A DNA stretch of 64,000 bases, from the NCBI GenBank assembly GCA_002720855.1, contig PBIN01000002.1:205930-269929 (forward strand), in the 5' to 3' direction. Under the pieces are notes generated by a model, which saw only the letters and a list, made by a program, of their open reading frames with translations, did not search any database and was not told the DNA's origin. A program made the position numbers and the translations under genes. Below, one piece after another: positions 15,864 to 56,316 of this stretch; positions within the stretch are counted from its first letter, which is position 1, and each line of letters starts with the position of its first letter. The DNA comes from Rhodospirillaceae bacterium. GTDB taxonomy: Bacteria; Pseudomonadota; Alphaproteobacteria; MPNO01; UBA2964.

Positions 15864-15869
15864 CCTCCT
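15864..15869 (-). promoter_or_regulatory. Ribosome binding site of the TauD gene ending at 14977
   Basis: The plus strand CCTCCT reads AGGAGG on the minus strand, 5 bases before the ATG at 15858. It decides the start against the longer frame. Confidence 0.7.
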
Positions 15870-15932
15870 GAATACTGCTTTTTTTCAATTGAACGCCATC
15901 GGCTGGCGAAACTCAACAGCAAGCCGCTTCAT

Positions 15933-15961
15933 TTGACGCTTTACCGGACGGCGCGTAGAGT
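15933..15961 (+). promoter_or_regulatory. Possible promoter for the TauD-TauD-VOC-UbiD cluster
   Basis: TTGACG (15933-15938), 17 bases, then TAGAGT (15956-15961) in the gap between two divergent TauD genes. It would give a leader of about 45 bases before the ATG at 16016. It rests on box matches only. Confidence 0.35.
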
Positions 15962-16015
15962 CTTGGAAAAGCGCAGAAATTGCGAAAAACAAAGGCGTTA
16001 CGCACGGAGGCTAAG

Positions 16016-16867: not shown

Positions 16868-16875
16868 GACGCGTA

Positions 16876-22387: not shown

Positions 22388-23230
22388 TCAGGCCACTAGT
22401 TTGTCGCCACTTACCTTACTACGCCTTAGGCGCCGGTCGTCGCCGATCTCAAAATGCGTTCGGGCATGCGTCACGGCAAGATTGTCCCAGATGACGAAAT
22501 CGCCGACCGACCATTGGTGTTCGTAGACGAACTGCCGCTGTTCTGCGTGGTCAAAAATTGAATCGAGGATCGGGCTGCTGTCTTCGACAGATAGTCCCTC
22601 TATCTGACAGGTCATGAGCCGATTGACGAAGAGCGCTTCGCGGCCATTTTGAGGGTGGGTAACGACGCAGGGCTGCCACGCCTTTTCGATATTCTCTAAA
22701 TTTTCGAGATCAGGTTTATCAATTGTCGCGTAGTCGTAAACGTTGAGGGCATTCTTTCCGTGGATCTCCTTTTTCAGGTCCTCCGGCAATGTGTCCCATG
22801 CCTGATACATGTTGCCCCACATCGTATTGCCGCCAACCTTTGGCACAGCAATAGAATACAGCATGGTGAATTTATCGGGCTCATCTGTGTAGCAGGTGTC
22901 GTGATGAAACCACATCTCGCCATCTGGAATCACGCCGGTGGGTTCGCCATTCTCATCACGAATGTTGCTAACATACGCAATCCCCGGTGTTTCGTAGGAA
23001 CTCGCTGGCGAAACGTAATCATCGGGGAGTTTTCTTTTGCGGACAGGGCCCAGCGATTTGGTGAAGGCGAGCTGTTGTTTCGCATTAAAGGTTTGATCAG
23101 GGAAAATCGTGACCGAGTATTCATGAACAATGGCACGGATCTCAGCCGCGAGTGCTTCATCGGGGGTCTCACGGAGATCGATCCCTGTAATACGGGCGCC
23201 CAACGGCGCATCCAACGGCGTGACTTTCAT
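22388..23230 (-). CDS. TauD/TfdA family dioxygenase
   Basis: 280 residues. Iron ligands are His109 and Asp111 (WFHHDTCY) with the distal His in AVTHARTHF; the arginine is in RRLRRSKV. It belongs to the same subfamily as the TauD ending at 14977 (shared GxxxDGEMxFHxDT and the long FEHQ/VYEH segment near the C-terminus). The start has GGAGGCAATTGA upstream. It is divergent from an SDR-UbiD pair, with a 123-base shared promoter region, which repeats the UbiD-SDR-TauD association seen elsewhere in the window. Confidence 0.88.
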   Translation of the reverse strand: MKVTPLDAPLGARITGIDLRETPDEALAAEIRAIVHEYSVTIFPDQTFNAKQQLAFTKSLGPVRKRKLPDDYVSPASSYETPGIAYVSNIRDENGEPTGVIPDGEMWFHHDTCYTDEPDKFTMLYSIAVPKVGGNTMWGNMYQAWDTLPEDLKKEIHGKNALNVYDYATIDKPDLENLENIEKAWQPCVVTHPQNGREALFVNRLMTCQIEGLSVEDSSPILDSIFDHAEQRQFVYEHQWSVGDFVIWDNLAVTHARTHFEIGDDRRLRRSKVSGDKLVA

Positions 23231-32832: not shown

Positions 32833-33037
32833 AGTGTCTCCCGGAATAGGGCTGGAATACGCCTTGCCTGTTATGGAATTAGCTTATCTTCCGGATCGGG
32901 ATTGGCAAAGGGTGCGCAATCAGATGCCTTTTGAATATTCATTCGTCTGCTCACCTAGACGCAGCCCGAAATGTCGACGACAATGGGGTTCAGAACAAAT
33001 CACCGGTGTGCTTAAGGCCGGACAGAGAGGAAGATCG

Positions 33038-34759: not shown

Positions 34760-34773
34760 GGCCCGTTTTTTGA

Positions 34774-35868
34774 ATGAGTGATATCGAGACTTTTACGACG
34801 TTGCAGCAGATCGCCGTTCGCGCACTGCGCAATCTCAACTGGAATGTCTATGACTATTTGATGGGTGGCTCGGAAACCGAGACGACGTTGAAACGCAATC
34901 GTCAGGGTTTCGATGCGCTCGCCCTCGCACCGCGCATTTTGCGTAACGTTGCCAATGTCGATCCGTCGGTAACATTCATGGGCAAGCAATTGCGCACACC
35001 GGTCATGCTGGCGCCAATTGGCTCGCTGCAATTGATGACACCGGATGGCGGTTTGGCAGCAGCGCAGGCGGCAGCCGAGGCGGGCACCATCACGATTTTG
35101 AGCTCGGTGACAAATCCAGAAATGGAAGATGTCGGCCCAGCGACGAACGGACCCAAAGTATATCAGCTTTATGTCAAAGGCGATGACGACTGGATCGATG
35201 TTCAGGTCAAGCGGGCGATTGATTCAGGTTTCGAGATATTTTGTTTAACAGTTGATACCGCGATCTATAGCCGCCGCGAACGCGATCTAATAAAGCGCTG
35301 GGCGCCGAGCTCGCGGCAGGCGGTTAATGACGGCGCAGACTTTCTTCCGATGCTGAGTTGGGAGACCGTGAAACGTTTCAAGGATCGGCATGACATTCCG
35401 TTGATTTTGAAGGGCATTGGTACCGGCGAAGATGCCGAGATTGCGCTGCAACATGGTATCGAATGTATCTATGTCTCCAACCATGGCGGACGCCAACTCG
35501 ATCATGGCCGTGGTTCAATCGAGGTGTTGCCGGAGGTTGTCGAGGTCGCCAAGGGCAAATCGAGCATCGTCATGGATGGTTCCATCCTGCGCGGCACAGA
35601 TGTCATCAAGGCGATGGCGTTGGGCGCTGATGCTGTCTGCATTGGTAAGCTGCAGGGGTTGGGATTGGCTGCAGGCGGCAAGGACGGTCTCGTCCATACG
35701 CTGAGATTGCTCGAAGAGGAAATTCGAACCTCGATGGCCTTGCTGGGGCTTCATGATTTTTCAGAAATTGACGCAAGTTTTGTTGAGGCGGTCGAGCCTC
35801 TGATCGAACCAAGCGTTACCTCACCCTATACGCATATTGAATACGACGAGCGGGAGTATGAAAGATGA
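34774..35868 (+). CDS. FMN-dependent alpha-hydroxy acid oxidase/dehydrogenase
   Basis: 364 residues of the glycolate oxidase/lactate dehydrogenase/mandelate dehydrogenase family. N-terminal YDYLMGGSETETTLKRNR is the typical substrate/FMN segment; LILKGIGTGEDA holds the FMN lysine; VSNHGGRQLDH holds the catalytic base His and the substrate Arg; IVMDGSILRGTDVIKAMALGA is the phosphate-binding part. It oxidises a 2-hydroxyacid to the 2-oxoacid. Its stop overlaps the ATG of the next ThDP gene by 4 bases, so it is translationally coupled to a probable decarboxylase of its product. Confidence 0.92.
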   Translation: MSDIETFTTLQQIAVRALRNLNWNVYDYLMGGSETETTLKRNRQGFDALALAPRILRNVANVDPSVTFMGKQLRTPVMLAPIGSLQLMTPDGGLAAAQAAAEAGTITILSSVTNPEMEDVGPATNGPKVYQLYVKGDDDWIDVQVKRAIDSGFEIFCLTVDTAIYSRRERDLIKRWAPSSRQAVNDGADFLPMLSWETVKRFKDRHDIPLILKGIGTGEDAEIALQHGIECIYVSNHGGRQLDHGRGSIEVLPEVVEVAKGKSSIVMDGSILRGTDVIKAMALGADAVCIGKLQGLGLAAGGKDGLVHTLRLLEEEIRTSMALLGLHDFSEIDASFVEAVEPLIEPSVTSPYTHIEYDEREYER

Positions 35869-37664
35869 GTGATATCAAGGCGCATGACCGGCCGGTCAAT
35901 CTCGGTAATCCGCAGATGGGCTGGGCCAGCGACGTTGCAGCGGAAATGCTGCGGCAGCTGGGGATCAAATATATTTCCCTGAACCCGGGGGCGAGCTATC
36001 GCGGGCTTCATGACTCCATCGTCAACTATCTTGGTAATGATACGCCGCAGATGCTGATCTGTTTACATGAGGACCATGCGGTGCATGTGGCGCAGGGCTA
36101 TGCAAAGGCCACCGGCGAACCCATGGGCTGTGCGTTGCATTCCAATGTCGGACTGATGCATGGGCTGATGGCGATCTTTAACGCTTGGTGTTACCGCGCC
36201 CCGATGATCATGATGGGAGCAACGGGTCCGGTTGATGCGCCGCTGCGCCGTCCATGGATCGACTGGATCCATACCGCCAAGGATCAGGGTGCCATGTTGC
36301 GCAACTATACAAAATGGGATGACGAGCCGCGTTCGGCGGAAGCGATTGTCGAGACCATGTTGCGGGCCAATCAGATGGCACGCTCAGAACCGCCGGGGCC
36401 GGTCTATGTCTGTCTCGATGCCGGTTTACAGGAACAGGCGCTGGAAGAGGAAATCACCATTCCCGATGTCAGCCGTTTCCAGACATCCGACCCGCCGCAG
36501 GCATCATCGAGCGCGGTCAAAGAGGTCGCGGATATGCTGCTCGGGGCATCCGATCCGGTGATCATGATCGGTCGCAGTGCACGTACGCAGGAGGCCTGGG
36601 ACAACAGGGTCAAATTGGCCGAAGCCGTCGGGGCAGGGGTCGTGACCAATCTCCGCAATGCTGCTGTTTTCCCAAGCGATCATCTTTTGCATGTCGGCCG
36701 TCCGGCGGGGCGCATCAACGATACGATCCGTAATGCAGTTCTTGGCGCGGATGCCGTGCTCAGTCTCAACTGGCTGGATTTTGGCGGCACGCAACGTCTT
36801 CTCAATCGCGACGGTGGTATCAAGGGCAGTATTGTGCATTGTTCGATGGAACCCTATGTCCATAACGGTTGGGGAATGGAGCTGTTCGAGTTGCCGATGG
36901 CAGACGTCAAGATCGAAGCCGATCATGATGCGCTGGTTACCCAACTGCTTGAAGAGATCAACAGTCGTGGCGTTGATGCCAAATGGGATGGCAAACGCGC
37001 CGGGCCCGAACCGGAGGCATATGATAAAATTGCCGACCGCGATGCTGACAGTGTTTTACAACCCGCCGATATCGTAACCGCATTGGCGGAGGCACAGGGC
37101 GACCGCAAGATCAGCTTGAACCGTGTCAGTTCAGGCGGTGTTGGTCCGGCCTATCACTTTACCCACCCGCTTTCCTATCTCGGACATGACGGTGGCGGTG
37201 GTCTGGCCTCAGGGCCGGGCACGTCGGTAGGCGCGGCACTCGCCGTCATGGATAGCGACTGGCTTCCCGTATCTGTGCTCGGCGATGGCGATTTCATGCA
37301 GGGCAACACGGCGCTGTGGACCGCCGCGAAATACAAAATCCCGATGCTGGTCATCATCTCGAATAACCGTTCGAACTTTAACGATGAGCTGCATCAGGAA
37401 ACCGTCGCCAAGGATCGCGACCGGCCGGTTGAGAACCGCTGGATAGGGATGCGTATTAGCGAGCCTGATATTGAGCTGGAGGAACTCGCCTGTTCACTCG
37501 GATTCGAAGCGCAGGGACCGATCACCACCGCAGGCGAGCTTATGGAAGCGATGGAAAACGGGCTCAAGGCTGTTGAGGCCGGGGGGCAGCACCTGATTAA
37601 TGTGCATGTCGATACGGGTTATGCCGAACCGCCGCTGATGCGTGGCGGAAGCAAGGGCGAATAA
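35865..37664 (+). CDS. ThDP-dependent decarboxylase family enzyme
   Basis: 599 residues. LNPGASYRGLHDS and Glu69 (LHEDHAVHVAQGYA) are in the PYR domain; LGDGDFMQGN ending in ISNN is the PP-domain Mg/ThDP motif. It overlaps the FMN oxidase stop by 4 bases (ATGA) and is followed by a very similar paralogue at 37687 (shared PVNxGNPxMGWASDVAAEML from residue 10). Substrate unknown; the fused chemistry 2-hydroxyacid to 2-oxoacid to aldehyde plus CO2 is the natural proposal for this operon. Confidence 0.92.
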   Translation: MSDIKAHDRPVNLGNPQMGWASDVAAEMLRQLGIKYISLNPGASYRGLHDSIVNYLGNDTPQMLICLHEDHAVHVAQGYAKATGEPMGCALHSNVGLMHGLMAIFNAWCYRAPMIMMGATGPVDAPLRRPWIDWIHTAKDQGAMLRNYTKWDDEPRSAEAIVETMLRANQMARSEPPGPVYVCLDAGLQEQALEEEITIPDVSRFQTSDPPQASSSAVKEVADMLLGASDPVIMIGRSARTQEAWDNRVKLAEAVGAGVVTNLRNAAVFPSDHLLHVGRPAGRINDTIRNAVLGADAVLSLNWLDFGGTQRLLNRDGGIKGSIVHCSMEPYVHNGWGMELFELPMADVKIEADHDALVTQLLEEINSRGVDAKWDGKRAGPEPEAYDKIADRDADSVLQPADIVTALAEAQGDRKISLNRVSSGGVGPAYHFTHPLSYLGHDGGGGLASGPGTSVGAALAVMDSDWLPVSVLGDGDFMQGNTALWTAAKYKIPMLVIISNNRSNFNDELHQETVAKDRDRPVENRWIGMRISEPDIELEELACSLGFEAQGPITTAGELMEAMENGLKAVEAGGQHLINVHVDTGYAEPPLMRGGSKGE

Positions 37665-37686
37665 CGGGAAGGTATGGAGAAAAATA

Positions 37687-39477
37687 ATGGCTGATTTAAC
37701 CAAATTCGACCGGCCCGTGAATGTCGGAAATCCCAAGATGGGCTGGGCCAGTGATGTCGCCGCCGAAATGTTGCGGCGCATGGGCATCAAATATCTGTCA
37801 ATGAACCCGGGTGCGAGCTATCGCGGGTTTCATGACTCTATCGTCAACTATCTCGGCAATGACGGTCCGCAGATGATCCTGTGTCTGCACGAAGATCATG
37901 CGGTGCATATCGCACAGGGCTATGCCAAGGCGACGGATGAGCCGATGGGCTGCATCCTGCATTCCAATGTCGGGTTGATGCACGGCATGATGGGCATCTT
38001 CAATGCCTGGTGTAACCGCCTGCCGATGGTGATCATGGGCGCGACTGGCCCCGTCGATGCCCCCAAACGGCGGCCTTGGATCGACTGGATTCACACCGCC
38101 AAGGACCAGGGCGCCTTGATCCGCGATTTCGTCAAATATGACGATGAGCCGCGTTCCGCCCAGGCATTGGCCGAGACTATGGTCCGCGTTAACAAAACCA
38201 TCCGTACTGCGCCGACCGCACCGGCCTATGTCTGTCTCGATGCCGGGCTTCAGGAATCCGAGATCGATCCGGAAATGAAGCTACCGGATGTCTCACGCTT
38301 TTTGCCGCCACCGCCGACACCGGCACCGCAGGAAAGCATCGATAAGGCTGCCGATCTGCTGGCCAATGCCAAGAATCCGGTAATCATGGCCGGCCGGTTG
38401 AAGCGTTCAGAGGAAGGCTGGGCCAATCGTATTAAATTGGCCGAAATGCTGGGCGCTGGCGTTGTGACCGATATGAAGACCGGCGCAAGCTTCCCGACCG
38501 ATCATCCGCTGCATCTTGCGCCACCAAGCAACCGGCCGCGCGCGGAAGCTGAAACCGAAGTTGCCAAGGCGGATGTCATTCTTGATCTCAACTGGGTCGA
38601 TCTCGCAGGCACCTTCAAGCTGATCTTTGGCCGTGACGATGTGAATGCCGAGGTCATCCATGTTTCAATGGATTCGATCATCCATAATGGCTGGACCACG
38701 GATCATATGGGCATGCCACTTGGCGACGTGACCATGCTGGCCGAACCGGAGCCGGTTGTTGAACAGCTTCTCGATGCGCTGGAAAAACGGCTGGATGGCA
38801 AGTCCAAATGGGATGGTGAAAACAAGGGGCGCACGGCAGAGCCTGATGTCACCTATGACATGCTCAACCAGGAGGATGAGGTCTCGGTTGAGGCGCTGAC
38901 CCTGTGCATGAATGAAGCGCGCAAGGGCCGCAACATAACGCTGACCAACGTCACCATCGGCTGGGCCGCGGATGGCTATCATTTCACCCACCCGCTGGAT
39001 TATCTCGGTAATGACGGCGGCGGCGGGTTGGCATCAGGCCCCGGCACAGCAATTGGCGGCGGGCTGGCACTCGCCGATACCGACCGCACGGTTGTCGCTG
39101 TGCTTGGCGATGGCGATACCATGCAGGGCTCGTCCTCGCTATGGACGGCAGCGCATTACAGCATTCCCGTACTGTTTGTGATCTCCAACAACCGATCCAA
39201 CTTCAACGACGAGATTCATCAGGAAACGGTTGCCAAGACGCGTGACCGTCCCGTCGAAAATCGCTGGATCGGTCAGCGGATCGACGATCCCACGGTTGAG
39301 ATCGAACGCTATGCCAAATCGCTTGGCGTCGAGTCCGCCGGTCCGATTGAAAAGATTGCCGATCTGGTTCCTGCGTTACAGCACGCACTGTCCGTTGTTG
39401 AATCCGGCAAGCCGTATCTGCTGAACGTGCATGTGCAGAAGGGCTACGCGGTTCCACCACCTGCCCGCGAGGCATAG
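37687..39477 (+). CDS. ThDP-dependent decarboxylase family enzyme (tandem paralogue)
   Basis: 596 residues from the ATG at 37687 (GGAGA upstream, 22 bases after the previous stop). Glu69 (LHEDHAVHIAQGYA) and LGDGDTMQGS..ISNN give intact cofactor motifs. It aligns without gaps for at least the first 200 residues with the product of 35865; both share RRPWIDWIHTAKDQGA and SNNRSNFNDE.HQETVAK. A recent tandem duplication giving either isozymes or an alpha/beta pair is likely. Last gene of the operon; 207 bases of non-coding DNA follow. Confidence 0.92.
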   Translation: MADLTKFDRPVNVGNPKMGWASDVAAEMLRRMGIKYLSMNPGASYRGFHDSIVNYLGNDGPQMILCLHEDHAVHIAQGYAKATDEPMGCILHSNVGLMHGMMGIFNAWCNRLPMVIMGATGPVDAPKRRPWIDWIHTAKDQGALIRDFVKYDDEPRSAQALAETMVRVNKTIRTAPTAPAYVCLDAGLQESEIDPEMKLPDVSRFLPPPPTPAPQESIDKAADLLANAKNPVIMAGRLKRSEEGWANRIKLAEMLGAGVVTDMKTGASFPTDHPLHLAPPSNRPRAEAETEVAKADVILDLNWVDLAGTFKLIFGRDDVNAEVIHVSMDSIIHNGWTTDHMGMPLGDVTMLAEPEPVVEQLLDALEKRLDGKSKWDGENKGRTAEPDVTYDMLNQEDEVSVEALTLCMNEARKGRNITLTNVTIGWAADGYHFTHPLDYLGNDGGGGLASGPGTAIGGGLALADTDRTVVAVLGDGDTMQGSSSLWTAAHYSIPVLFVISNNRSNFNDEIHQETVAKTRDRPVENRWIGQRIDDPTVEIERYAKSLGVESAGPIEKIADLVPALQHALSVVESGKPYLLNVHVQKGYAVPPPAREA

Positions 39478-39547
39478 GCGAGGGTAGCGCAAGCCGTTAG
39501 TCGAAGAGCCATTTGCAGGCAGCTGCATAACGCTAATTCTGATATTC

Positions 39548-39569
39548 TTTCAACTATTGATAGTTGAAA
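39548..39569. promoter_or_regulatory. Long perfect palindrome, probable operator
   Basis: Arms TTTCAACTAT (39548-39557) and ATAGTTGAAA (39560-39569) are perfect inverted repeats around TG. The size and AT-rich TTCAACTA half-site resemble operators of MarR-type or similar dimeric regulators. It lies between the ThDP operon and the AT-rich gene at 39685; no regulator gene is adjacent. Confidence 0.55.
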
Positions 39570-39600
39570 CGCTTTGACGCGTGATAGGGTTGTGGCGCGA

Positions 39601-39626
39601 CAGCCGGTGCTGATTGGCTCCGGCTG
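39601..39626 (+). repeat. Hairpin in the leader of the gene at 39685
   Basis: CAGCCGG (39601-39607) pairs with CCGGCTG (39620-39626) across a 12-base loop. No T run follows, so it is not a classic terminator; it may be a leader structure. Confidence 0.4.
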
Positions 39627-39684
39627 CGGAGTGGTACGATTAGATAACGCCAGACCTCCAAAGTTTTGTTGTAGGGTTTAAGTT

Positions 39685-40227
39685 ATGAACTGCCTGGTTA
39701 AGTTGTTGTTCTGTCTGGGTATCTTATTAATGTCGCTGGCTATTTATTTGGAGATTTGGCCGTATCCGAATTCGCCGCCGGTTCCAGATATTTCAGCAAA
39801 AATTTGGTTGCCAGAAGTAATAACTGAAAATCAGGCGGAAAGATTAGTTGCAAGACTGAGAAAGGCTGCGGAAACACCCGGTTTGTCTGGCCGCATGACA
39901 GATTTTACGAACTTTGATTGGGATCTTGTCTGCTATCACGGGCGATATCGACAGCCGAGCGCAAAATTAAAGGGAAAGTACTATGGCGAAGGTGGCGACG
40001 ACACATTCGGAGGTAGTGAATACGACGCGTATTTATCATTTTATAAGAACAAAATAAATATTATTTCGGTAAAGTTCGACCTTTTAAAGGTAAAAGTTTC
40101 TACGACCTTTTATAAATATATATGTTCAGACGTTAATACTAAGTTCATTATTGATAAACGTCCTGCTGATTTTGATCTAAAATTTAAAAAAGACACCGTT
40201 TTCATTAAAAAACGCGATGAAAAATAA
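39685..40227 (+). CDS. Membrane-anchored or secreted hypothetical protein, AT-rich
   Basis: 180 residues with one N-terminal hydrophobic helix (about 5-22) followed by YPNSPP and a beta-rich soluble part ending in Lys-rich strands. I do not recognise the family. The gene is far richer in AT, especially after 40020, than the enzyme genes on both sides, a sign of separate origin. Upstream are a 22-base palindrome and a hairpin, so it may have its own regulated promoter. Confidence 0.6.
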   Translation: MNCLVKLLFCLGILLMSLAIYLEIWPYPNSPPVPDISAKIWLPEVITENQAERLVARLRKAAETPGLSGRMTDFTNFDWDLVCYHGRYRQPSAKLKGKYYGEGGDDTFGGSEYDAYLSFYKNKINIISVKFDLLKVKVSTTFYKYICSDVNTKFIIDKRPADFDLKFKKDTVFIKKRDEK

Positions 40228-40270
40228 TAGGTCACACCTCCAAAGATGGATGATTCTTGGACGGTAAAAC

Positions 40271-42055
40271 CTAAGTCAGCGCCGCCTTGCCCTTGCCGCG
40301 GCGGCAGATGGTGTCGACCAGAGCCGGTTTGCCTTTCTTAACCTGTTCGATGGCGCGTTTGACAGCGGCCTGAACGTCGTCGCCATTTTCAATCGGCCCT
40401 TCCGCCCACCAGCCCTGCGCGCGGGCGAGCCCGGCAAAGTCAGGATCGGGGTCGAGCAGGTCCATGCCGATATAAGCACGGCTCGGATCGGTGCCGCGAT
40501 TATTGGCGATCACGATCTGATGGTTCCAGTCATTGTAATAGGCGCGGTTGTTGTACATCACGATCAGCATCGGGATTTCGTACTTCGCCGCCATCCACAG
40601 CGCCCCGGCATCGAACATCAGATCGCCATCCGGCTGCAGATCGATGCAGAGCCGTCCAGTGCCTTTATTGGCCAGCGCGACGCCAAGCGAAGTGCCGATC
40701 TGTGTGCCAGTGCCAAGCTCTCGCCCGCCATGACAATAAGGCCGGTCGAAGTCCCACAGACGGCGCGCCGCATCATGCATGGTGCCAGCGGTGAGGACCC
40801 AGTCTTCGTCCTTGATGACCTCCCAGATTTCAAGCGCGAGACGGCCAACCGTCATGGGTTGTGCATCCCAATCCTCTTCGGCTTCCTTGCGCCATTGCGC
40901 GCGGACGGCGCGATGTTTCTCGCCGATCATCTCAGTGCGGTTGGCAATCTTCTCCGCCAGCCCATCGGTATTGGCGATACGTTCTTTCAGGAGATCGGTT
41001 AGCATGGGTGAGGCGGTGACGACATCTGCTGTCATGCGGACATCAGGATAGAGCGTGCGGGCATAATCCATCGACCATTTTGAGATTTCCTGATCGGTCC
41101 ATCCAATATCGATCCATTTCGCATCTTCCTTCACGGATGGCTTGACAGTCCGGGTCGAGATATCGCGGACATGGGTGTGTTTTTCAAAGTCAGCGACATC
41201 CAGTAACAGCACCGCATCGACGCCGTCATAGCAGGCCTCCTGATCCATTGAGAGATTGAGCGGATGGTTGCCGGGAAAATTAAGACGCGAGTTTACATCC
41301 CACACACTGGCGCCCAGCGTTTCCGCGAGATCGACGACATGATCCCAGCCGTGCGGCGGGCGCGCGGCGAAGTCTGCGACGATGGCCGGACGTTCGGCGG
41401 CGGCCAGAATATCGGCGGCCTCGGTCAACGCCGTCGGATCGGGGGCGGCCTGTGCGGGAACTTTTACGGTATCCTCCGGCGGCATTTTCACTTCATGCTC
41501 AAGCGGCGCTTCCTGAAGTCCCGCGTCGTAGCACATATAGATAGGTCCCTGACGGCCGGTCATCATGACGGAATAGGCACGGGCAAAGGAGTCCGGCACA
41601 TAATCGATTGTCGCGGGTTGCGCGTCCCACTTAATGTAGTCGCGCAATACCTGGCCCTGAACATTGGCGGAATGAATCCAGTCGATAAACGGACGGCGTT
41701 TTGGCTCGGCGACAGGGCCGGTCGCACCAACAATGAACACCGGCGCGCGATCGAGATAGGCGTAATAGACGCCCATCGGCGCATGCAATAATCCAACTAG
41801 GTTGTGGACGATGGCGATCATCGGTTTGCCGGAATGACGAGCGTAACCATGGGCCATTTGCACAGCAATTTTTTCATGCGTGCACAGCATCATTGGCGGA
41901 TCGTTTTCGCCATAATTGACGAGACTGTCATGGAGGCCGCGATAGGAGGCGCCCGGGTTCAGAGCGATATGCTCAAACCCGTACTGTTTGATCAGGTCGA
42001 CGATGACGTCCGACTGGTATTTTGTGTTGGATTTTTTGATGCCCTCGTCGCTCAT
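40271..42055 (-). CDS. ThDP-dependent enzyme with PDG in place of GDG
   Basis: 594 residues from the ATG at 42055 (GGGACGG upstream; the ATG at 42067 lacks a ribosome site, and the paralogue also starts MSD). LNPGASYRGLHDS and Glu61 (THEKIAVQMAHGY) are intact. The PP-domain motif reads LQPDGDLMFD and ends in YNNRAYYND, so the first Gly of GDG is Pro, as in the paralogue at 43073. The metal-binding Asp and Asn are kept, so the enzyme may still be active. Last gene of the ThDP-DUF3891-ThDP operon. Confidence 0.9.
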   Translation of the reverse strand: MSDEGIKKSNTKYQSDVIVDLIKQYGFEHIALNPGASYRGLHDSLVNYGENDPPMMLCTHEKIAVQMAHGYARHSGKPMIAIVHNLVGLLHAPMGVYYAYLDRAPVFIVGATGPVAEPKRRPFIDWIHSANVQGQVLRDYIKWDAQPATIDYVPDSFARAYSVMMTGRQGPIYMCYDAGLQEAPLEHEVKMPPEDTVKVPAQAAPDPTALTEAADILAAAERPAIVADFAARPPHGWDHVVDLAETLGASVWDVNSRLNFPGNHPLNLSMDQEACYDGVDAVLLLDVADFEKHTHVRDISTRTVKPSVKEDAKWIDIGWTDQEISKWSMDYARTLYPDVRMTADVVTASPMLTDLLKERIANTDGLAEKIANRTEMIGEKHRAVRAQWRKEAEEDWDAQPMTVGRLALEIWEVIKDEDWVLTAGTMHDAARRLWDFDRPYCHGGRELGTGTQIGTSLGVALANKGTGRLCIDLQPDGDLMFDAGALWMAAKYEIPMLIVMYNNRAYYNDWNHQIVIANNRGTDPSRAYIGMDLLDPDPDFAGLARAQGWWAEGPIENGDDVQAAVKRAIEQVKKGKPALVDTICRRGKGKAALT

Positions 42056-42157
42056 GAGCCGTCCCATATCTGATAAATTATTGAATTGCGTTGCCTGAAA
42101 TTAGCAGCCGCGCGCAGGTGGGGCTAGCCCACCCAAATTATTTACCGGGAAGGTGCG

Positions 42158-43000
42158 TTACGCAGCGACGAAGGTGAAAACCTGTTCTTCGGTCGGCAAG
42201 CCCGCGATATGGGCACCCAGGTCGTCCGGCCTGTCGTCATCGGAAAACGCCGTGAGATAGCGCCCCTTTGAATGAATTTCGAGCGTGTCACCCGCAAACG
42301 GAAACGGCGCAAACGAATAGGTGCCATTGCCCTGCGGCGTTACCGTAACAGTCGTGTCGTTGTTCTTGCTTTCGGGTACGTGGGTAAAGACTTCTACCGC
42401 GCGGTCGCTGTCGTGGCGGAGATTAAAATAGAGCGCCAGCGTGTCGCAGAACTGCAGTAGTTTGTAATTGCGGAACAGTGTTTCTTCCTCGACCCAACCA
42501 GCCGTTTCGGGGTTGGCAGCGAGGTTGGCCTTGAGCTGTTCCTGGCGGGCAATTTCGCCTTCGAGAATTTCATTCGTCTCATCAGCCATCTCCGGCGAGA
42601 TTGGCGTGGAGGTCGAGCCGCCCTGACGCACCCGAAAGTCGGAGAAGCCATAGCGAGCATGATAGAGGCCCCAGGTGTGCATGGACGCTAGCAAGCCGCA
42701 ATAATCATGTTTCGCCTGATTGAAATCGGGCGACAGTTTGGTGGTCGCCGCACCGCCCGGACCCTTGGCACCACCGACTCCGGTCGGAAAACCACTCTTG
42801 GGATCGAGCACGGGATTGGCATCGAATTTGTCCCAGCCCCGATCATGATGACCGATGACATAAATGGTTTCTTCATAGGGGGCGGGTTTGTCGAAACGAT
42901 CGTTGCCAAAGGCGCGGGCAAACTGTTCACAGAGCTGATTATGCTCAGCCATCAGACTGACAAAGCGGGGTTGGCCGTCGGGTGCGTTCTGAATCATCAT
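42158..43000 (-). CDS. DUF3891 family protein
   Basis: 280 residues. The conserved H-x-Q/N-L pattern (AEHNQLCEQFA near residue 20), VIGHHDRGWDKFDANPVLD (about 48-66) and the late LxxCDTLALYFNLRHD segment mark DUF3891. The His/Asp pattern HHD suggests a metal-dependent helical hydrolase fold, but no activity is established. It lies between two paralogous ThDP genes, 72 bases after one and 102 before the other, and so is probably expressed with them. Possible roles include hydrolysis or protection of a ThDP-enzyme product; this is speculative. Confidence 0.8.
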   Translation of the reverse strand: MMIQNAPDGQPRFVSLMAEHNQLCEQFARAFGNDRFDKPAPYEETIYVIGHHDRGWDKFDANPVLDPKSGFPTGVGGAKGPGGAATTKLSPDFNQAKHDYCGLLASMHTWGLYHARYGFSDFRVRQGGSTSTPISPEMADETNEILEGEIARQEQLKANLAANPETAGWVEEETLFRNYKLLQFCDTLALYFNLRHDSDRAVEVFTHVPESKNNDTTVTVTPQGNGTYSFAPFPFAGDTLEIHSKGRYLTAFSDDDRPDDLGAHIAGLPTEEQVFTFVAA

Positions 43001-43072
43001 GGCTATAGTCCTCCGTAACTCTTCGGACGTTGGCTTAACGCGTGATCATACTAGCAGAAAACTGCGTTTCAG

Positions 43073-44848
43073 CTAAGCCGCTTCGCCGCGCCGCCAGGTG
43101 ATGACATCAACCAGCGCGGGCTTGCCCTTCTTGACTTCCGCCATCGCACGTTGAACCGCAGGCTGGATTTCCTTGGGGTCCATAATCGGACCCTCGGCAT
43201 ACCAATCCAAACCTTTTGCGATATGGGCAAAATCGGGGGCAGGGCCTTCAAGGTCCATGCCGATATAGGCGCGGTCCGGATCGGTGCCGCGTTTATTAGC
43301 CACCGAAATCTGATGCGCCCAGTCGTTATAATAGGCGCGGTTGTTATACATGATGACCAGAATGGGGATTTCGTACTTGGCAGCAATCCACAATCCGCCG
43401 AGATCGAACATTAGATCGCCGTCGGGCTGCAAATCGACAACGACTTTTTCCGTATCCTTGTAGGCATAGGCGACACCGAGCGAGAGACCGAACTGAGTGC
43501 CCGTGCCGAGATCACGGCCCGGATGTTGATAGGGCTTGTCAAAGTTCCAGACCTTACGAACCCAGTCCTTGAGTGTGCCTGCGGTAAGAACCCAATCCTC
43601 TTCCTTGATTGCTTCCCAGACCTCTGTTGCCATACGGGTTTCATGCATCGGCATCTGATCCCAGGTGTCCTTGACCTGTTCCTGCCACTTGGCCCATTGC
43701 GCCGCATGCTTTTCACCAACGACCTGCGCGCGGTCCTTTACCTTCGCCGCCAGTTTGGGATCGGCATCGATCCGTGTTTTGCAGGCTTCGGTCAGCGCCG
43801 GGATCGCATTGGCGGTATCAGACAGAATCCGCATATCCCAATTGTGATGTTTGTTGTAGTCGGTGGCCCATTTGCTGATTTCAATGTCGGCGAAACCGAT
43901 ATCGATCCATTTGCAGTCGGGCGTTGTGATGGCTTCGACTTCACGGGTTTCCCAGTTCGGTTTATGCGATCCCCGAGTCCAGTCGACAACATCGAGCGCA
44001 ACGACGAGGTCAGCGCCTTCGAACGCATCGGCGTGCATGGAAACGCTCAGCGGATGCTGGTTCGGAAAGCCGAGCCGTTTGTTGATGTCAAAAACAGCGG
44101 AGCCCATGGTCTCGGCAAGTTCTACGGTGTCGTCAAATCCAATCGGTGCGCGGGCGGCGTATTCGGTAAGCAGGACAGGATAGTCGGCATCCACCAGCAT
44201 ATCGGCGGCTTCGCCGATCAATTTTGGATCGGCCGCGAGACGTGGCGGCACCTTCACCGCATCGGCCGACGGAATTTGTACGTTTTCGGTAAGTTCCGCT
44301 TCTTGCAGCCCGGCGTCATAGACCATGTAAACCGGGCCTTGCGGCTCGGTCATCATGATCGAGTAAGCACGGGCAAAGGAGTCTGCCACGCCATGAACGC
44401 TGGCGGGCTGATAATCCCATTTGGTGTAATCGCGTATTGCGGAACCTTGCGCAAACGCAGTGTGTATCCAGTCAATGAAGGGACGTCGGAGTTTTTCATC
44501 CATAGGCCCTGTCGCGCCCATCAAAAAGACCGGGCATCGATCAATATAGGCGTAATAGACAGCGAGCGGTGCATGCAGCAGGCCGACGACGTTGTGGACG
44601 ATCGCCGGCATGGGTTTGCCCGTCGCTTTTGCGTAGCCGTGTGCGATCTGAACAGCGAGTTTTTCATGATTGCACAGGATCATCGGCGGATCATCTTCGC
44701 CGTAATTGACCAGGCTGTCGTGAAGTCCTCGGTAACTCGCGCCCGGATTTAGGGGAATTGCGGGAAAATCGTACAGTTTGATCATGTCGACAATGACGTC
44801 GGACTGATAACGGGTATTGGCTTTGCGGATTGGTCCACCGTCACTCAT
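43073..44848 (-). CDS. ThDP-dependent enzyme with PDG in place of GDG (paralogue)
   Basis: 591 residues. Glu62 (NHEKLAVQIAHGYA) and LNPGASYRGLHDS are intact; the PP-domain motif is LQPDGDLMFD..YNNRAYYND, with Pro replacing the first Gly. Closely similar to the product of 40271 over its length (RRPFIDWIH, MTEPQGPVYMVYDAGLQEA versus MTGRQGPIYMCYDAGLQEA, GTDPDRAYIGMDL). It heads the minus-strand operon and is divergent from the molybdenum hydroxylase gene. Confidence 0.9.
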   Translation of the reverse strand: MSDGGPIRKANTRYQSDVIVDMIKLYDFPAIPLNPGASYRGLHDSLVNYGEDDPPMILCNHEKLAVQIAHGYAKATGKPMPAIVHNVVGLLHAPLAVYYAYIDRCPVFLMGATGPMDEKLRRPFIDWIHTAFAQGSAIRDYTKWDYQPASVHGVADSFARAYSIMMTEPQGPVYMVYDAGLQEAELTENVQIPSADAVKVPPRLAADPKLIGEAADMLVDADYPVLLTEYAARAPIGFDDTVELAETMGSAVFDINKRLGFPNQHPLSVSMHADAFEGADLVVALDVVDWTRGSHKPNWETREVEAITTPDCKWIDIGFADIEISKWATDYNKHHNWDMRILSDTANAIPALTEACKTRIDADPKLAAKVKDRAQVVGEKHAAQWAKWQEQVKDTWDQMPMHETRMATEVWEAIKEEDWVLTAGTLKDWVRKVWNFDKPYQHPGRDLGTGTQFGLSLGVAYAYKDTEKVVVDLQPDGDLMFDLGGLWIAAKYEIPILVIMYNNRAYYNDWAHQISVANKRGTDPDRAYIGMDLEGPAPDFAHIAKGLDWYAEGPIMDPKEIQPAVQRAMAEVKKGKPALVDVITWRRGEAA

Positions 44849-50604: not shown

Positions 50605-51672
50605 ATGGTATCTAGAGAACCCGCCAATCCAATGAAACCCGTTGTCGATCCGGCGGCGTGGAGCGCTGCTGATCTTGCAGATGACCAAGGTTGGGTACAC
50701 GAGCTGTCGGACACCGATATTGCGGAACTCGACACGGTTGTGCACACGCTGGATTCACGAATTTCGGATGTTCTTGAGATCACCGACTCCGATATTGACC
50801 TTCCAAGTCTGGGACCAAGACTCGAAGGAATAGCCGACGACATTATTGAGGGGCGGGGGCTGGCATTGATTCGCGGTATTCCTGTTGAACGGTATACGAG
50901 GCTGCAATCGGCGATTGCGTTTTGGTGCATCGGTAGCTTTGTTGGTGAACCTGTATCCCAAAATGCCAAAGGCCATTTGCTTGGTCATGTACAGGATCTT
51001 GGCGGTACATCTTTGAAGAATCCGAATAATCGCGGATATCAAACCCACGATGGGCTGCCTTATCATTGTGATTCCTGCGATGTCGTCGTTTTAATGTGTT
51101 TGCATCCCTCAAAAAGCGGCGGCGAAAGCACCGTCGTCAGTTCTCTCAATATTTACAATGAGATGCTGAAGCGAAACCCGGCAGCCACCGCGGCTTTAAC
51201 AGAGGCGATCTATCGTGATCGGCGAAACGAGGTGCCAAATGGCAGGAAACCCTGGTTTCAGCTGCCTGTTTTCAACTTTCACAAGGATTATATGACCGTG
51301 AGCTGGCAGGGCGGATATATCCGTTCTGCGCAGCGATTTGATGAGTTACCCCGGCATTCGGACGATTTAAAGGACGGTCTTGATCTGTTTAATAAACTCG
51401 CGAACGAGCTGGCATATTCGATGGAATTCAAACCCGGAGACATACAGCTATTGCACAATCATGTCACTGTGCATTCACGAACCGCATTCGAGGATTTTCC
51501 CGAATACGAGCGCAAGCGCCATCTTTTGCGCCTCTGGTTGGCCACACCAAATGGACGTCCATTGTCACCCGCCTACAAAAACCGTTATGGTAAGCTGGAA
51601 CCGGGCGTTCGACCTGCGGGCGGAATAATTGTTCCAGGGACTGTATTTAAGGCGCCTTTGGAGGCAGAATAG
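50605..51672 (+). CDS. TauD/TfdA-fold dioxygenase, divergent and longer form
   Basis: 355 residues, about 70 longer than the other TauD proteins here because of an N-terminal extension of about 80 residues. Ligands are His154 and Asp156 (YHCDSCD) and a distal His in LLHNHVTVHSRT; the Arg is in RHLLRLWL. The layout recalls the gamma-butyrobetaine/CAS-like branch of the TauD family. It starts a plus-strand group leading into the amidohydrolase/Rieske genes, with a 67-base gap before the first amidohydrolase. Confidence 0.88.
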   Translation: MVSREPANPMKPVVDPAAWSAADLADDQGWVHELSDTDIAELDTVVHTLDSRISDVLEITDSDIDLPSLGPRLEGIADDIIEGRGLALIRGIPVERYTRLQSAIAFWCIGSFVGEPVSQNAKGHLLGHVQDLGGTSLKNPNNRGYQTHDGLPYHCDSCDVVVLMCLHPSKSGGESTVVSSLNIYNEMLKRNPAATAALTEAIYRDRRNEVPNGRKPWFQLPVFNFHKDYMTVSWQGGYIRSAQRFDELPRHSDDLKDGLDLFNKLANELAYSMEFKPGDIQLLHNHVTVHSRTAFEDFPEYERKRHLLRLWLATPNGRPLSPAYKNRYGKLEPGVRPAGGIIVPGTVFKAPLEAE

Positions 51673-51739: not shown

Positions 51740-52948
51740 ATGGAATTAGCCACGAGTGATCGTTATCACGCGATGAGCGTGGATAGCTTCGATACGGAAA
51801 AGCTATTGACCAATGCGGCGCGTCAGCGCGATGCCCGAAAATTAAACGAATTTCCAATATTTGATTCTGACGCGCATCACTATGAAAGTGAATCAATTTC
51901 GGAAATTATCGACTATATCGACGATGACATCCTGAATCATCTGGCGCGCGCTAACCCCGGAATTATTTCGCAGGGCCGCGGCGGTTATCAGCCGATGGGA
52001 GGGCGGATTACACGTTATCCACTCCGCAAAATCGAAGAAACTCCTGCGGATGGCGTTCACCGCGACGTGCACCTGTCTCGCAGATGGATGGACGCAATGG
52101 GCATAGATTATATCGGTCTATTCCCAACCGGTATGCTGGGTATTGGTCTCATTCCCCAGGTAGAGGTCGAGGTTCAGTATGCCCGTGCCTATATGCGCTG
52201 GCTAACCGAAAAGATTTTGCCGAGCGACCCTCGCGTCAAAGGCTACGTCTTTCTTCCCTTCAATAGCCCTGAAGCGGCTTATGAAATTGCGACAGAGTTT
52301 GGCGATAAGGAAGGTATCATTGGCTTCTTAATCACCAGTCCTCGCTATAAGCCCGTTCATGACAATGCTTATATGAAGACCTACAGCTATATTGAGGAAA
52401 CCGGAAAGCCGTTGATCTTCCATTCTGGTCTCAATTGGAATGATCCTTTGATGTCGGTGACCAATCGCTTCATCGCAGCTCATGCGCTCGGTTTCACGCT
52501 CTATAACGTGATCCATATGTGCAACTGGATCACCAACGCATTGAATGAACGTTTCCCCAAAATTCCAGTCGTTTGGACGGAATCGGGTCTTGCCTGGGTG
52601 CCGTGGCTCGCACAGCGGCTTGATAACGATTACAAGATGCGCTCGTCGGAGTGCCCAGGGCTTAAGAAGCTGCCGAGCGACTATATGGCTGACATGTACT
52701 ACACAAGCCAGCCAATGGAGATGCCGAACGACCTTTCTTTCCTGGAAAGCACTTTCAAGATGATCAATGCGGAAACCCAGCTGCTCTATGCCTCGGACTA
52801 TCCGCACTGGGATGCCGATATGCCGATGACAATCTATGACCTTCCTTTCCTGGATGAGAAAGCGAAGCGTAATATTCTTGGCGGCAATGCCATCCGGATA
52901 TTCAATCTCGATGTTTCGGATCGGTACCCAGACTACAAGGCGGCTTAA
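51740..52948 (+). CDS. Amidohydrolase-2 family metalloenzyme (ACMSD/LigW-like)
   Basis: 402 residues. The metal-binding start DSDAHHYE (Asp42, Asp44, His46, His47) is the family's DxDxH form, followed by a TIM-barrel pattern, LIFHSGLNWND with the second His, and a C-terminal ASDYPHWD with the catalytic Asp. Members include metal-dependent nonoxidative decarboxylases of hydroxybenzoates and ring-fission products, so decarboxylation is as likely as hydrolysis. Paralogue of the protein at 53782. AGGAGAAG precedes the ATG. A strong hairpin follows the gene. Confidence 0.88.
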   Translation: MELATSDRYHAMSVDSFDTEKLLTNAARQRDARKLNEFPIFDSDAHHYESESISEIIDYIDDDILNHLARANPGIISQGRGGYQPMGGRITRYPLRKIEETPADGVHRDVHLSRRWMDAMGIDYIGLFPTGMLGIGLIPQVEVEVQYARAYMRWLTEKILPSDPRVKGYVFLPFNSPEAAYEIATEFGDKEGIIGFLITSPRYKPVHDNAYMKTYSYIEETGKPLIFHSGLNWNDPLMSVTNRFIAAHALGFTLYNVIHMCNWITNALNERFPKIPVVWTESGLAWVPWLAQRLDNDYKMRSSECPGLKKLPSDYMADMYYTSQPMEMPNDLSFLESTFKMINAETQLLYASDYPHWDADMPMTIYDLPFLDEKAKRNILGGNAIRIFNLDVSDRYPDYKAA

Positions 52949-52971
52949 CCGCCCAATGAATACTGAACTTG

Positions 52972-53003
52972 CGAAGGCCGGGTTTAACACCCGGCCTTCG
53001 TTT
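52972..53003 (+). terminator. Intrinsic terminator-like hairpin
   Basis: A perfect 12-bp stem (52972-52983 with 52989-53000, arms CGAAGGCCGGGT and ACCCGGCCTTCG) around a 5-base loop, followed by TTT. It lies 24 bases after the amidohydrolase stop and before the Rieske gene. The T run is short, so it may only attenuate. Confidence 0.65.
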
Positions 53004-53072
53004 CAAAGACGGGTTTGACAGCTCAGAGGACGAAGGCGAAAATTAAAGAAATGAAGGTAGAAAGGGAGTGTA

Positions 53073-53444
53073 ATGGCTAGAGAGATTTTGGTCGGAAAGG
53101 CCTCCGACTTCAAAGAAGGGGATAAGAAAATTGTCCCCCACGGCAAGAATAGCGAGATCGGTGTCTATCTTGTCCATGGAAATTGGTATGCCTATGCAAA
53201 TCTCTGCCCCCACCAGGGTGGTCCCGCATGTGAAGGTCTGTTGATGGCCAAGGTAGAAGAGGTGATTGCTGAGGATAAGACCTATCAGGGCATGCGCTTC
53301 AATCATGACGAAATGCATATCGTCTGTCCGTGGCACGGCTGGGAATTCGATATCGCTGATGGGCAGGCCGTCGCTGATCGGAAATGGAGCCTCCGCAAAT
53401 TCGATGTCGAATTGCGGGGTGAAGATGTCTATGTCCTCGCCTGA
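53073..53444 (+). CDS. Small Rieske [2Fe-2S] ferredoxin-like protein
   Basis: 123 residues. Cluster ligands are Cys45/His47 (CPH) and Cys85/His88 (CPWHGWEF). The gap between the two motifs is 37 residues, against about 15-17 in classic Rieske oxygenase ferredoxins, so a long loop is inserted. It has no signal peptide and is cytoplasmic. It lies between two amidohydrolases together with an overlapping small gene. It may deliver electrons to an oxygenase elsewhere or be a subunit of a complex with the adjacent proteins. GAAAGGGAG precedes the ATG. Confidence 0.88.
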   Translation: MAREILVGKASDFKEGDKKIVPHGKNSEIGVYLVHGNWYAYANLCPHQGGPACEGLLMAKVEEVIAEDKTYQGMRFNHDEMHIVCPWHGWEFDIADGQAVADRKWSLRKFDVELRGEDVYVLA

Positions 53445-53772
53445 CCAAGATCCAAGAGCCGCTGATTTGCCTGAGGGCGGTGAGGTTATCGCCCACATCC
53501 CCGATGAAGAAGCCGCGCTTCGCGCTTTCGCCAAGGCGGTAAGCGAAATTCCGGAAGGAGAACCTATTCCGGATGAAATCGTGCAGCAGGGTCTTACCGC
53601 GCTAACGCGGCTTTATGCTGTAAAATTCCAGCTTGGCGAGCGCTGGGAACCCTTTACAGAGAGTAGTTTAGTACCGGCAACGGCGGCGATGATAATGTGC
53701 ACAGCAATGATGCGTGCCGTTAATGTCGAGGTTTTCGAACTCGGCATGTGGCAAAGCTGGTCTGGTGCCTAA
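53425..53772 (+). CDS. Unknown small protein overlapping the Rieske gene
   Basis: 115 residues starting at 53425 (or 113 from the ATG at 53431); the frame is open earlier but only inside the Rieske gene. GGGGTGA provides a ribosome site. It overlaps the Rieske stop by 20 bases and ends 9 bases before the second amidohydrolase, so it is coupled to both. Sequence features are an acidic N-terminus, a helix-rich middle (LTALTRLYAVKFQLGERWEPF) and a Met-rich ATAAMIMCTAMMRAVNVEVFELGMWQSW. I do not recognise the family; a small partner subunit is the best guess from position. Confidence 0.65.
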   Translation: MSMSSPDQDPRAADLPEGGEVIAHIPDEEAALRAFAKAVSEIPEGEPIPDEIVQQGLTALTRLYAVKFQLGERWEPFTESSLVPATAAMIMCTAMMRAVNVEVFELGMWQSWSGA

Positions 53773-53781
53773 GAGGAAATA

Positions 53782-55008
53782 ATGGATTTACCGACAAGCG
53801 ATATTCATAAGCAAGCTGTAGAGTCTTTTGATACATCCAGTTTGCTGACTAATGCGGCTCGCCAGAGAGACGCAAGAAATTATGCAGCGTTCCCAATAGT
53901 TGATGTCGATTGTCATCATTACGAAAATGAATCCATCTCGGAAATTGTTAAGTACATTGATGACCCTGTCCTGAAACAGATGGGCATGCTTTACACCTCC
54001 GGAGGTACGGGCGGACAAACCCCTTTCAATCCAGGTCTTGTCGGATATCAGGATATTGCCGGTCGCGTGACCCGGTATCCACTACGCAAAACGGAAACCA
54101 CACCAGCGGATGATAAACACCGCGACGTTCATCTTTCCCTGCGTTGGATGGATGCGATGGGCGTAGACTATGTCTGCCTTTTTCCGACGCCTATGCTAAG
54201 CCTTGGGCTGCATCCGCAGGCCGAAGTAGAAGCCGGTTTGGCGAAAGCTTATAACCGCTGGCTGCTAGAAAACATTACCGCTAAGGAAGATCGCATCAAG
54301 ACGATGCTCTATGTTCCGTTTAGCGACCCCGAAGCCGCCTATGAAACGGTGCAGGAATTTGGCGATCACCCCGATGTAATTGGTTTTATGATCGTCTCTG
54401 TCCGATATCATGCGGTACACAGCAATCCTTACATGAAGACTTATGCGCTCATGGAAGAAATCGGCAAACCGCTCGGATTTCACAGTAACTATAATTGGAA
54501 TGACCGGCTTGTCGGAAACAGCAATCGATTTTTGGTGACGCACGCACTTGGATTTACCGTCTATAACGCTGTGCATATCTGCAACTGGGTGGTTAATGGC
54601 CTCCCCGAACGTTTTCCAAAACTCAAAACTGTCTGGATCGAATCCGGATTGGCATGGATTCCCTGGGTGATGCAGCGGCTGGATAACGACTATAAAATGC
54701 GCTGGTCTGAAGCACCGTCGCTTAAGGGTCTGCCGAGCGACTATATGCGCGAGATGTATTACACCAGCCAGCCAATGGAAATGCCGGATCGTAAAGAGAT
54801 ACTGCAAATGACCTTTGATATGATCAAGGCGGATACTCAGCTTTTATGGGCATCGGACTATCCGCATTGGGATATGGACGTACCGAGCGTGATCTATGAT
54901 CTGCCGTTCCTGGACGAAAACGAGAAACGCCGCATTCTAGGCGGTAATGCGATTGAACTGTTTGACCTGGACGTCAGCAGCAGGTTTCCAAATTACAAAG
55001 CAGCATAG
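53782..55008 (+). CDS. Amidohydrolase-2 family metalloenzyme (paralogue)
   Basis: 408 residues with DVDCHHYE (Asp41, Asp43, His45, His46), LGFHSNYNWND, and ASDYPHWD. Highly similar to the protein at 51740 (shared LLTNAARQRDAR, HYENESISEIV, RWMDAMG, LPSDYMREMYYTSQPMEMP), so the two are duplicates flanking the Rieske and small genes. An acidic/metal site and a TIM barrel support decarboxylase or hydrolase activity. It ends 12 bases before the MmgE/PrpD gene, in the same operon. Confidence 0.88.
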   Translation: MDLPTSDIHKQAVESFDTSSLLTNAARQRDARNYAAFPIVDVDCHHYENESISEIVKYIDDPVLKQMGMLYTSGGTGGQTPFNPGLVGYQDIAGRVTRYPLRKTETTPADDKHRDVHLSLRWMDAMGVDYVCLFPTPMLSLGLHPQAEVEAGLAKAYNRWLLENITAKEDRIKTMLYVPFSDPEAAYETVQEFGDHPDVIGFMIVSVRYHAVHSNPYMKTYALMEEIGKPLGFHSNYNWNDRLVGNSNRFLVTHALGFTVYNAVHICNWVVNGLPERFPKLKTVWIESGLAWIPWVMQRLDNDYKMRWSEAPSLKGLPSDYMREMYYTSQPMEMPDRKEILQMTFDMIKADTQLLWASDYPHWDMDVPSVIYDLPFLDENEKRRILGGNAIELFDLDVSSRFPNYKAA

Positions 55009-55020: not shown

Positions 55021-56316
55021 ATGACACTTACGGAAGGTCTTATTCGGCTCATACGCGAAAAGCCGGTCTCGGATAGTGATCTCCATAAAACGGCCCTATT
55101 CACGCTGGATGCGGTTGCCAATACCATCGCCGGTCGCAATTCCATTCCTGGCCGCAAACTTTTGCAATGGTCTGAAAACCGGCCACTGGATGCTGCCAGG
55201 CGGGCTTTTGTTATGGGTGGCCTTACCCATATTCTCGAAGTCGATGATGTGCATCGTGCGTCGGTCATTCATACGGGTTGTGTGACAGTTCCTGTTGCGC
55301 TGTCAATTGCGGCGGAACGAGATATTCCCGGAGATAAATTTCTTAAAAGTGTGCTTTTTGGGTTTGAAGCAACCTGCCGGGTAGGGATGGCAGTCGGACC
55401 CACGCACTATAAGGTTTGGCATAATACGGCGACCTGTGGTCCGTTCGGCAGTGCGATGACGGCAGCAACTTTGCTTGATCTTTCGGATGAGCAGGCGATG
55501 CATGCGTTAGGCAATGCTGGGACACAGTCAGCTGGCCTGTGGGAATTTCTTGCAACCGGTGCTATGAGCAAGCATCTGCATGCCGGGCGCGCTGCGGAAG
55601 CTGGTTTGGTCGCTGCCGAACTTGCGGAGATAGATTTCACCGGACCTCCGGCAATTCTCGAAGGCCCTGCTGGTTTCTTCGCAGGTGCCTGTCCCGACGC
55701 GGATCCTGATGCTGTTCTGCGCGATCCTGATGCCGCATGGCAAGTTCATTTGACGTCGATAAAACCCTGGCCTTCTTGTCGGCACACACATCCTGCCATC
55801 GATGCTTCCTTGGCGGTATTCGAGGAGCTTGAAGGTGGTGCCATCGATCATATTGAAGTGGAAACCTATCAGGCCGCACTTGATGTATGTGACCGACCGG
55901 TCGCCGACAGCGAATATGAAGGCAAGTTTTCTCTGCAACATTGTGTTGCTGCCGCTTTGCAACGGGGCAAAGTTGACTTTTCGGCTTTCGGTCCCGAGGC
56001 GCGCGAGCAAGCCGCCGTCCTCGCGAAGAAAGTCAGTGTTAGTGCCAAAGAACCATATGCAACGGCGTATCCAGGTTCCTGGGGTGCCGCTGTTTCGGTA
56101 ATCCTCGAAGATGGTACCAAAGTCGAATCCGCTAAGCCCGAATGTAAAGGGGATCCGGAAGCGGCATTGACCGACGACGAAATGATTAATAAAGCACGGG
56201 ATCTGATCCGCTTTGGTGGCGTTAATGACCCGAATGCGGTTATTGATGGTATTCTGGAAATGTCTCAGGGAGGCAAGCCGCTTGACGTTGGCACGGTGTT
56301 GGCGCCAGCGGCATAA
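55021..56316 (+). CDS. MmgE/PrpD family protein
   Basis: 431 residues of the 2-methylcitrate dehydratase/aconitate decarboxylase-like fold. Typical features: DAVANTIAG, GGLTHILEVDDVH, GFEATCRVGMAVGPTHYKVWHNTATCGPFG, GNAGTQSAGLWEFLATGAMSKHLHAGRAAEAGL and IKPWPSCRHTHPAID. Members dehydrate methylcitrate or related tri/dicarboxylates or decarboxylate aconitate. It follows the amidohydrolase at 53782 by 12 bases and precedes the Tct transporter by 129 bases. With a PrpB-fold enzyme downstream it suggests a tricarboxylate branch. Confidence 0.9.
   Translation: MTLTEGLIRLIREKPVSDSDLHKTALFTLDAVANTIAGRNSIPGRKLLQWSENRPLDAARRAFVMGGLTHILEVDDVHRASVIHTGCVTVPVALSIAAERDIPGDKFLKSVLFGFEATCRVGMAVGPTHYKVWHNTATCGPFGSAMTAATLLDLSDEQAMHALGNAGTQSAGLWEFLATGAMSKHLHAGRAAEAGLVAAELAEIDFTGPPAILEGPAGFFAGACPDADPDAVLRDPDAAWQVHLTSIKPWPSCRHTHPAIDASLAVFEELEGGAIDHIEVETYQAALDVCDRPVADSEYEGKFSLQHCVAAALQRGKVDFSAFGPEAREQAAVLAKKVSVSAKEPYATAYPGSWGAAVSVILEDGTKVESAKPECKGDPEAALTDDEMINKARDLIRFGGVNDPNAVIDGILEMSQGGKPLDVGTVLAPAA

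Follow-up and report, generated by a model that had tools for sequence, protein, structure and literature searches.

A conserved alphaproteobacterial gene unit encoding a probable tandem amidohydrolase-fold oxygenase, a Rieske ferredoxin and a small protein of an unnamed family

The 64,000-nucleotide stretch of DNA analysed here (hereafter the window) contains a conserved unit of four genes that probably encodes an oxygenase of a recently described kind, the amidohydrolase-related dinuclear oxygenase (ARO) class, which would use two metal ions (manganese and/or iron) to introduce oxygen into small organic acids. The enzyme class itself is known; what differs here is a conserved gene for a small protein (hereafter SML) and an intact tandem pair of AROs. 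From the sequences, the unit is likely an AibH2-like catabolic multicomponent monooxygenase of the ARO class with an undescribed accessory or effector component. Its placement in the ARO class follows from the ranking of PDB matches, the metal ligand set and the adjacent Rieske gene, and the view of SML as a dedicated component follows from its exclusive linkage, a conserved 14-nt overlap and selection. The unit and its direct neighbours are arranged as follows.

50605..51672, + strand: TauD/TfdA-family dioxygenase (PF02668, E 9e-36), directly upstream of the unit; a neighbour kept in loci L035-L037.
51740..52948, + strand: ARO-1 (A1), probable PF04909 amidohydrolase-fold dinuclear oxygenase subunit, 402 aa (Pfam PF04909, E 2.8e-21).
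53073..53444, + strand: Rieske [2Fe-2S] ferredoxin, 123 aa, C-x-H-x37-C-x2-H (Pfam PF00355, E 7.3e-13).
53431..53444, + strand: overlap of the Rieske 3' end with the SML start, 14 nt, ATGTCCTCGCCTGA; same length in 69/79 units.
53431..53772, + strand: SML, small protein, 113 aa from the conserved start or 115 aa from the ATG at 53425; helical, unnamed family.
53782..55008, + strand: ARO-2 (A2), paralogue of A1, 408 aa (Pfam PF04909, E 8.2e-23).
55021..56316, + strand: MmgE/PrpD-family protein (PF03972/PF19305), directly downstream of the unit; kept in L035-L038 and in 14 loci overall.

The four genes of the unit are real and conserved. The initial annotation of two paralogous amidohydrolases around a Rieske gene and a small ORF agrees with our coordinates, and all four genes are on the + strand. 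Conservation of the unit in other genomes is borne out by a search with SML alone in about 780 genomes, which gave 25 places, including a second unit in the window genome, and all 25 are flanked by Rieske and ARO genes. This second copy is about 85 kb off, at about C2:172,370-174,256 (L032), and consists of an ARO with its own Rieske protein and SML.

A1 and A2 are 64% identical. Both had been read as ACMSD/LigW-like enzymes, but a sequence search of the PDB places AROs on top for each of them (8SM7, 8SM6, 8SM9, 8SM8, AibH2 in 6M1W chain B, and PtmU3), and their nearest characterised relatives are thus oxygenases. The best match has an E value of about 1e-31 for A1 and 4e-37 for A2 (8SM7), and A2 matches AibH2 at 3e-25, whereas the best decarboxylase reaches only 2e-6 (A1) and 1e-11 (A2). 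In AibH2, the dinuclear Mn/Fe or diiron site is formed by D25, H27, H211, E265, D337 and H340, six ligands by which the class is defined, and an acidic second-shell residue at the D342 position is typical of binuclear members (PMC7782822, PMC10401708). The six AibH2 ligands and the second-shell Asp are all found in both A1 and A2 (7/7). These seven positions are nearly invariant among 112 gathered sequences, with single exceptions at two positions and a few gaps, and the D342 position is Asp in all 110 sequences with a letter there. This conservation would fit a dinuclear site and is by itself no proof of oxygenase activity.

The PDB ranking and the ligand set led us to reject a LigW/ACMSD decarboxylase. 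More broadly, A1 and A2 could resemble ACMSD/LigW in catalysing a metal-dependent nonoxidative decarboxylation or a hydrolysis, with the Rieske protein serving another enzyme, as the common Pfam family PF04909 and the weaker PDB matches to 5-carboxyvanillate decarboxylase, ACMSD and gamma-resorcylate decarboxylase would allow. We consider this very improbable in view of the far better ARO matches, the second-site ligands and the acidic D342-position residue present in both proteins, and a Rieske-ARO link conserved in Pseudomonadota and in bins labelled Acidobacteria. From the earlier inference of a decarboxylating or hydroxylating complex, homology to AibH1H2, SfbO and PtmU3 supports the hydroxylating part and leaves the decarboxylating part unsupported.

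The known systems resemble the unit to different degrees. The Aib monooxygenase AibH1H2GF of Rhodococcus wratislaviensis (PMC7782822, PMC10401708) likewise combines two PF04909 proteins and a Rieske protein in one catabolic cluster, and its sequence similarity to the unit is low. The best PDB matches, SfbO and the other candidate AROs (8SM6-8SM9; PMC10811679), have one PF04909 oxygenase encoded alongside a Rieske ferredoxin, and SfbO and the window AROs have in common a His-Trp-Asp motif at the second metal. Since the sulfate-binding Arg232 and Arg235 of SfbO find no counterpart in A1 in a pairwise alignment, the substrate probably differs from that of SfbO. The diiron monooxygenase PtmU3 (6OMP) has the same fold class and ligand pattern as the window AROs and accepts CoA-linked substrates (PMC7782822); its similarity to A1 and A2 is weaker.

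In published work, the hallmark of AROs is a neighbouring gene for a small Rieske ferredoxin, with 90% co-occurrence (PMC10401708), and this link has served for "guilt by association" (PMC10811679). In the unit, the Rieske gene (53073-53444) adjoins the AROs, so a redox protein wired between amidohydrolases, which had been regarded as unexpected, is the published arrangement. We scanned a species-representative genome collection with a Rieske alignment and inspected the best 80 loci. An ARO gene is adjacent in 79 of them, and the remaining locus is near a contig end. The motif of the window protein is CPHQ...CPWH, and the reported distance of 37 residues between C-x-H and C-x2-H is exact. Among the best 80 loci, 79 relatives have a spacing of 36-37, and the lone value of 31 may reflect an early pattern match. 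Ten other Rieske proteins of the same genome have a spacing of 16-17, and those beside more distant AROs one of 32-36. In the AlphaFold model (mean pLDDT 90.7), the insert, at about residues 56-84, forms a long beta-hairpin, and Foldseek matches the model to CarAc-type Rieske ferredoxins (E 1e-5), that is, a normal Rieske ferredoxin fold. The unusual spacing is thus characteristic of this ferredoxin group. Separately, the same genome has 36 Rieske-domain matches; many look like Rieske oxygenases, suggesting an organism specialised in breaking down organic matter oxidatively.

A1 and A2 represent a lineage-specific duplication, and both look intact, unlike AibH1 and AibH2. On the ARO tree, the A1 and A2 sequences of the genus and family fall into distinct clades, one for each, with short branches, and both have low dN. 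Relatives in the next family have a single ARO per unit (L038 and Defluviicoccus L076-L080), and tandem pairs are also found in L047, L081 and L082. Three further close ARO paralogues are encoded in the genome, one with its own Rieske protein and SML (L032) and two, L033 (C14:286007) and L034 (C7:163483), with neither nearby; the latter two have full ligand sets and may use the partners of the window unit in trans.

These observations bear on how the two oxygenases work together. A1 and A2 may form one hetero-oligomer with a catalytic and a structural subunit, as the AibH1H2 heterotetramer would suggest (PMC7782822), and the two paralogues indeed flank the Rieske and SML genes across the genus and family. 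We find this arrangement possible but doubtful, as AibH1 is mononuclear and has no D342 equivalent, whereas A1 and A2 both retain the full dinuclear set, and most relatives (46/80) have a single ARO with the Rieske protein and SML. Alternatively, A1 and A2 could each act on a substrate of its own as independent oxygenases served by a single Rieske/SML pair, a reading that we rate only slightly below even. It is favoured by the two separately conserved clades, each with a complete ligand set, and by L033 and L034, which could draw on the same pair in trans; the co-linear conservation, however, would be compatible with a hetero-oligomer as well.

SML has two in-frame starts, at 53425 (20-nt overlap with the Rieske gene, 115 aa) and at 53431 (14-nt overlap, 113 aa). 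The 115-residue ORF with a 20-base overlap first proposed therefore holds for the first ATG but not for the conserved start. The start of SML may be the second in-frame ATG, since it gives the overlap used by the relatives: of 79 cases, 69 have an overlap of exactly 14 nt. Among the ten exceptions, nine carry an in-frame ATG located 17 nt inside the Rieske gene, and L072 has lost the 14-nt start and kept the 20-nt start.

SML is under purifying selection. Outside the overlap, it differs from that of one congener, the nearest, at 9, 2 and 65 sites at codon positions 1, 2 and 3, respectively, and dN is low and dS near-saturated for all four genes of the unit. Translation of the small ORF, as initially supposed, is favoured by this selection evidence only. 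A chance ORF was rejected on the basis of selection, the conserved overlap and linkage.

No Pfam or NCBIfam model matched SML, and a sequence search against solved structures gave no match below E 0.02. Its structure model, of moderate confidence (pLDDT 78), is all-helical with four helices; comparison of this model by Foldseek, which bears on a relation to effectors of the MmoB/T4moD type, gave no significant match (best E 1.3), and VIA-align gave generic helical matches with Z below 7. No conserved Cys/His metal-binding pattern was seen in the SML alignment.

Among the about 780 genomes searched, SML is found with this enzyme kind and nowhere else. Searched alone, it is present in 14 of 385 genomes of the same class, and when a profile was run against 398 genomes of the phylum, all matches came from that class. 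In the Rieske-anchored set of the best 80 loci, SML is present in 58 and absent from 21, about a quarter, of these close Rieske-ARO loci; ARO chemistry therefore need not have SML in every lineage. The set of 25 places and the Rieske-anchored set share a few genomes (L038 and L086, for example, are the same contig), and their counts are not fully independent. The loci without SML are clustered in the ARO tree; about five or six changes account for their distribution. That SML had merely been overlooked there through divergence was dismissed after an unfiltered search at E up to 1 that took in ORFs down to 30 aa and gave one weak match, located in a single locus well beyond the ARO on its downstream side. 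Judged by eye from their lengths, the Rieske and ARO genes of these loci show no extension, and thus there is no sign of an SML fusion. Where SML is present, gene order is variable, with Rieske-ARO-SML in L040, L041, L121 and L133, and the partnership is retained. Acidobacteria MAGs (L088-L090) have close Rieske-ARO pairs without SML, and a Flavobacteriales MAG (L075) has a Rieske protein 93% identical to that of the window, probably from a mis-binned alphaproteobacterial contig.

SML would be a dedicated accessory component whose synthesis is tied to that of the Rieske protein through translational coupling. Its likeliest partner would be the oxygenase, alone or paired with the ferredoxin, and its role that of an effector or assembly aid that promotes coupling or assembly; the distance correlations among SML, ARO and Rieske (0.70-0.74) do not tell which protein it binds. 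We propose only tentatively that SML is an effector or coupling protein, bound to the ARO and controlling electron delivery to it or its activation of O2. By analogy, soluble methane monooxygenase (sMMO) and toluene-4-monooxygenase with its effector likewise combine a dinuclear hydroxylase, a Rieske ferredoxin and a small extra protein, but their hydroxylases are four-helix bundles (PMC7782822), whereas the window AROs are TIM barrels. On the other hand, SML could be an assembly or metal-insertion factor, a chaperone for the dinuclear site or the ARO fold outside the catalytic cycle, which is a possibility that we hold lightly. Its small size, helical nature and absence from some lineages with otherwise complete units would suit such a factor; moreover, heterologous AibH1H2 required chaperones for good yield, and metal content decides its activity (PMC10401708). 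However, SML is coupled to the Rieske gene (69/79) and not to the ARO gene, and its alignment lacks the Cys/His pattern of metal binding.

In the catalytic cycle that we consider for the ARO-class monooxygenase, a reductase encoded elsewhere would give electrons to the Rieske ferredoxin, which would pass them on to a putative dinuclear Mn/Fe or Fe/Fe site within the TIM barrel of the AROs. Once reduced, this site would activate O2 and hydroxylate a small organic-acid substrate during catabolism. In the aib cluster, the FMN/[2Fe-2S] reductase AibF is encoded adjacently, but no counterpart or other reductase gene adjoins the unit in the window, suggesting that the electron donor here is probably shared. 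A genome-wide search for AibF-like proteins found one weak partial match (27%), beside an apparent Rieske oxygenase gene set. An AibF-like PDR/VanB reductase is found near the unit in Thioclava and Phaeobacter; in Phaeobacter gallaeciensis, the unit is carried by plasmid pP75_b.

Genes conserved around the unit within the family encode a TauD-type dioxygenase, two FMN alpha-hydroxyacid dehydrogenases, a molybdenum hydroxylase-like protein, MmgE/PrpD, an isocitrate-lyase-like protein and tripartite tricarboxylate transporter components (the last three partly named by eye). Over all loci, the commonest neighbours look, from their sequences, like ABC transporters, MmgE/PrpD and an isocitrate-lyase-like lyase. 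These genes would fit the uptake and breakdown of small organic acids. Elsewhere in the window, genes that look UbiD-like (decarboxylases at 1362-3104, 18212-19696 and 24226-25890, and an apparent fourth fragment at 90-677) and several TauD-like dioxygenase genes (8277-9128, 14977-17736 and 22388-23230) form a large island where paralogues for organic-acid catabolism seem to have multiplied. Several genes for enzymes of the thiamine-diphosphate type, named by eye, cluster with an FMN alpha-hydroxyacid dehydrogenase at 30970-44848, and homologues of these genes are also near Rieske-SML-ARO units elsewhere (10 loci).

The unit had been put forward as a candidate for an undescribed system. The enzyme class and its Rieske partner are already known, and the undescribed part is the small ORF, to which the first reading rightly drew attention: the ARO papers searched mention no SML-like protein in their main text, although supplementary neighbourhood drawings may show one. 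The gene table of the aib cluster lists no small protein (PMC7782822), and SML is not mentioned in the main text of the SfbO paper (PMC10811679).

AROs are a young enzyme class with few members of known activity, and firm evidence for Mn-dependent C-H hydroxylation dates only from 2023 (PMC10401708). With its two intact AROs in tandem, the unit lends itself to testing substrate division. SML may help explain the weak activity of recombinant AROs assayed without partners, and its presence in Phaeobacter, Thioclava, Sinorhizobium and Aminobacter, all of them culturable, offers direct access to the natural reductants, cofactor loading and coupling of AROs. If SML does act as an effector, it would be an independently evolved TIM-barrel counterpart of the soluble methane and toluene monooxygenase effectors and would define a four-component ARO class.
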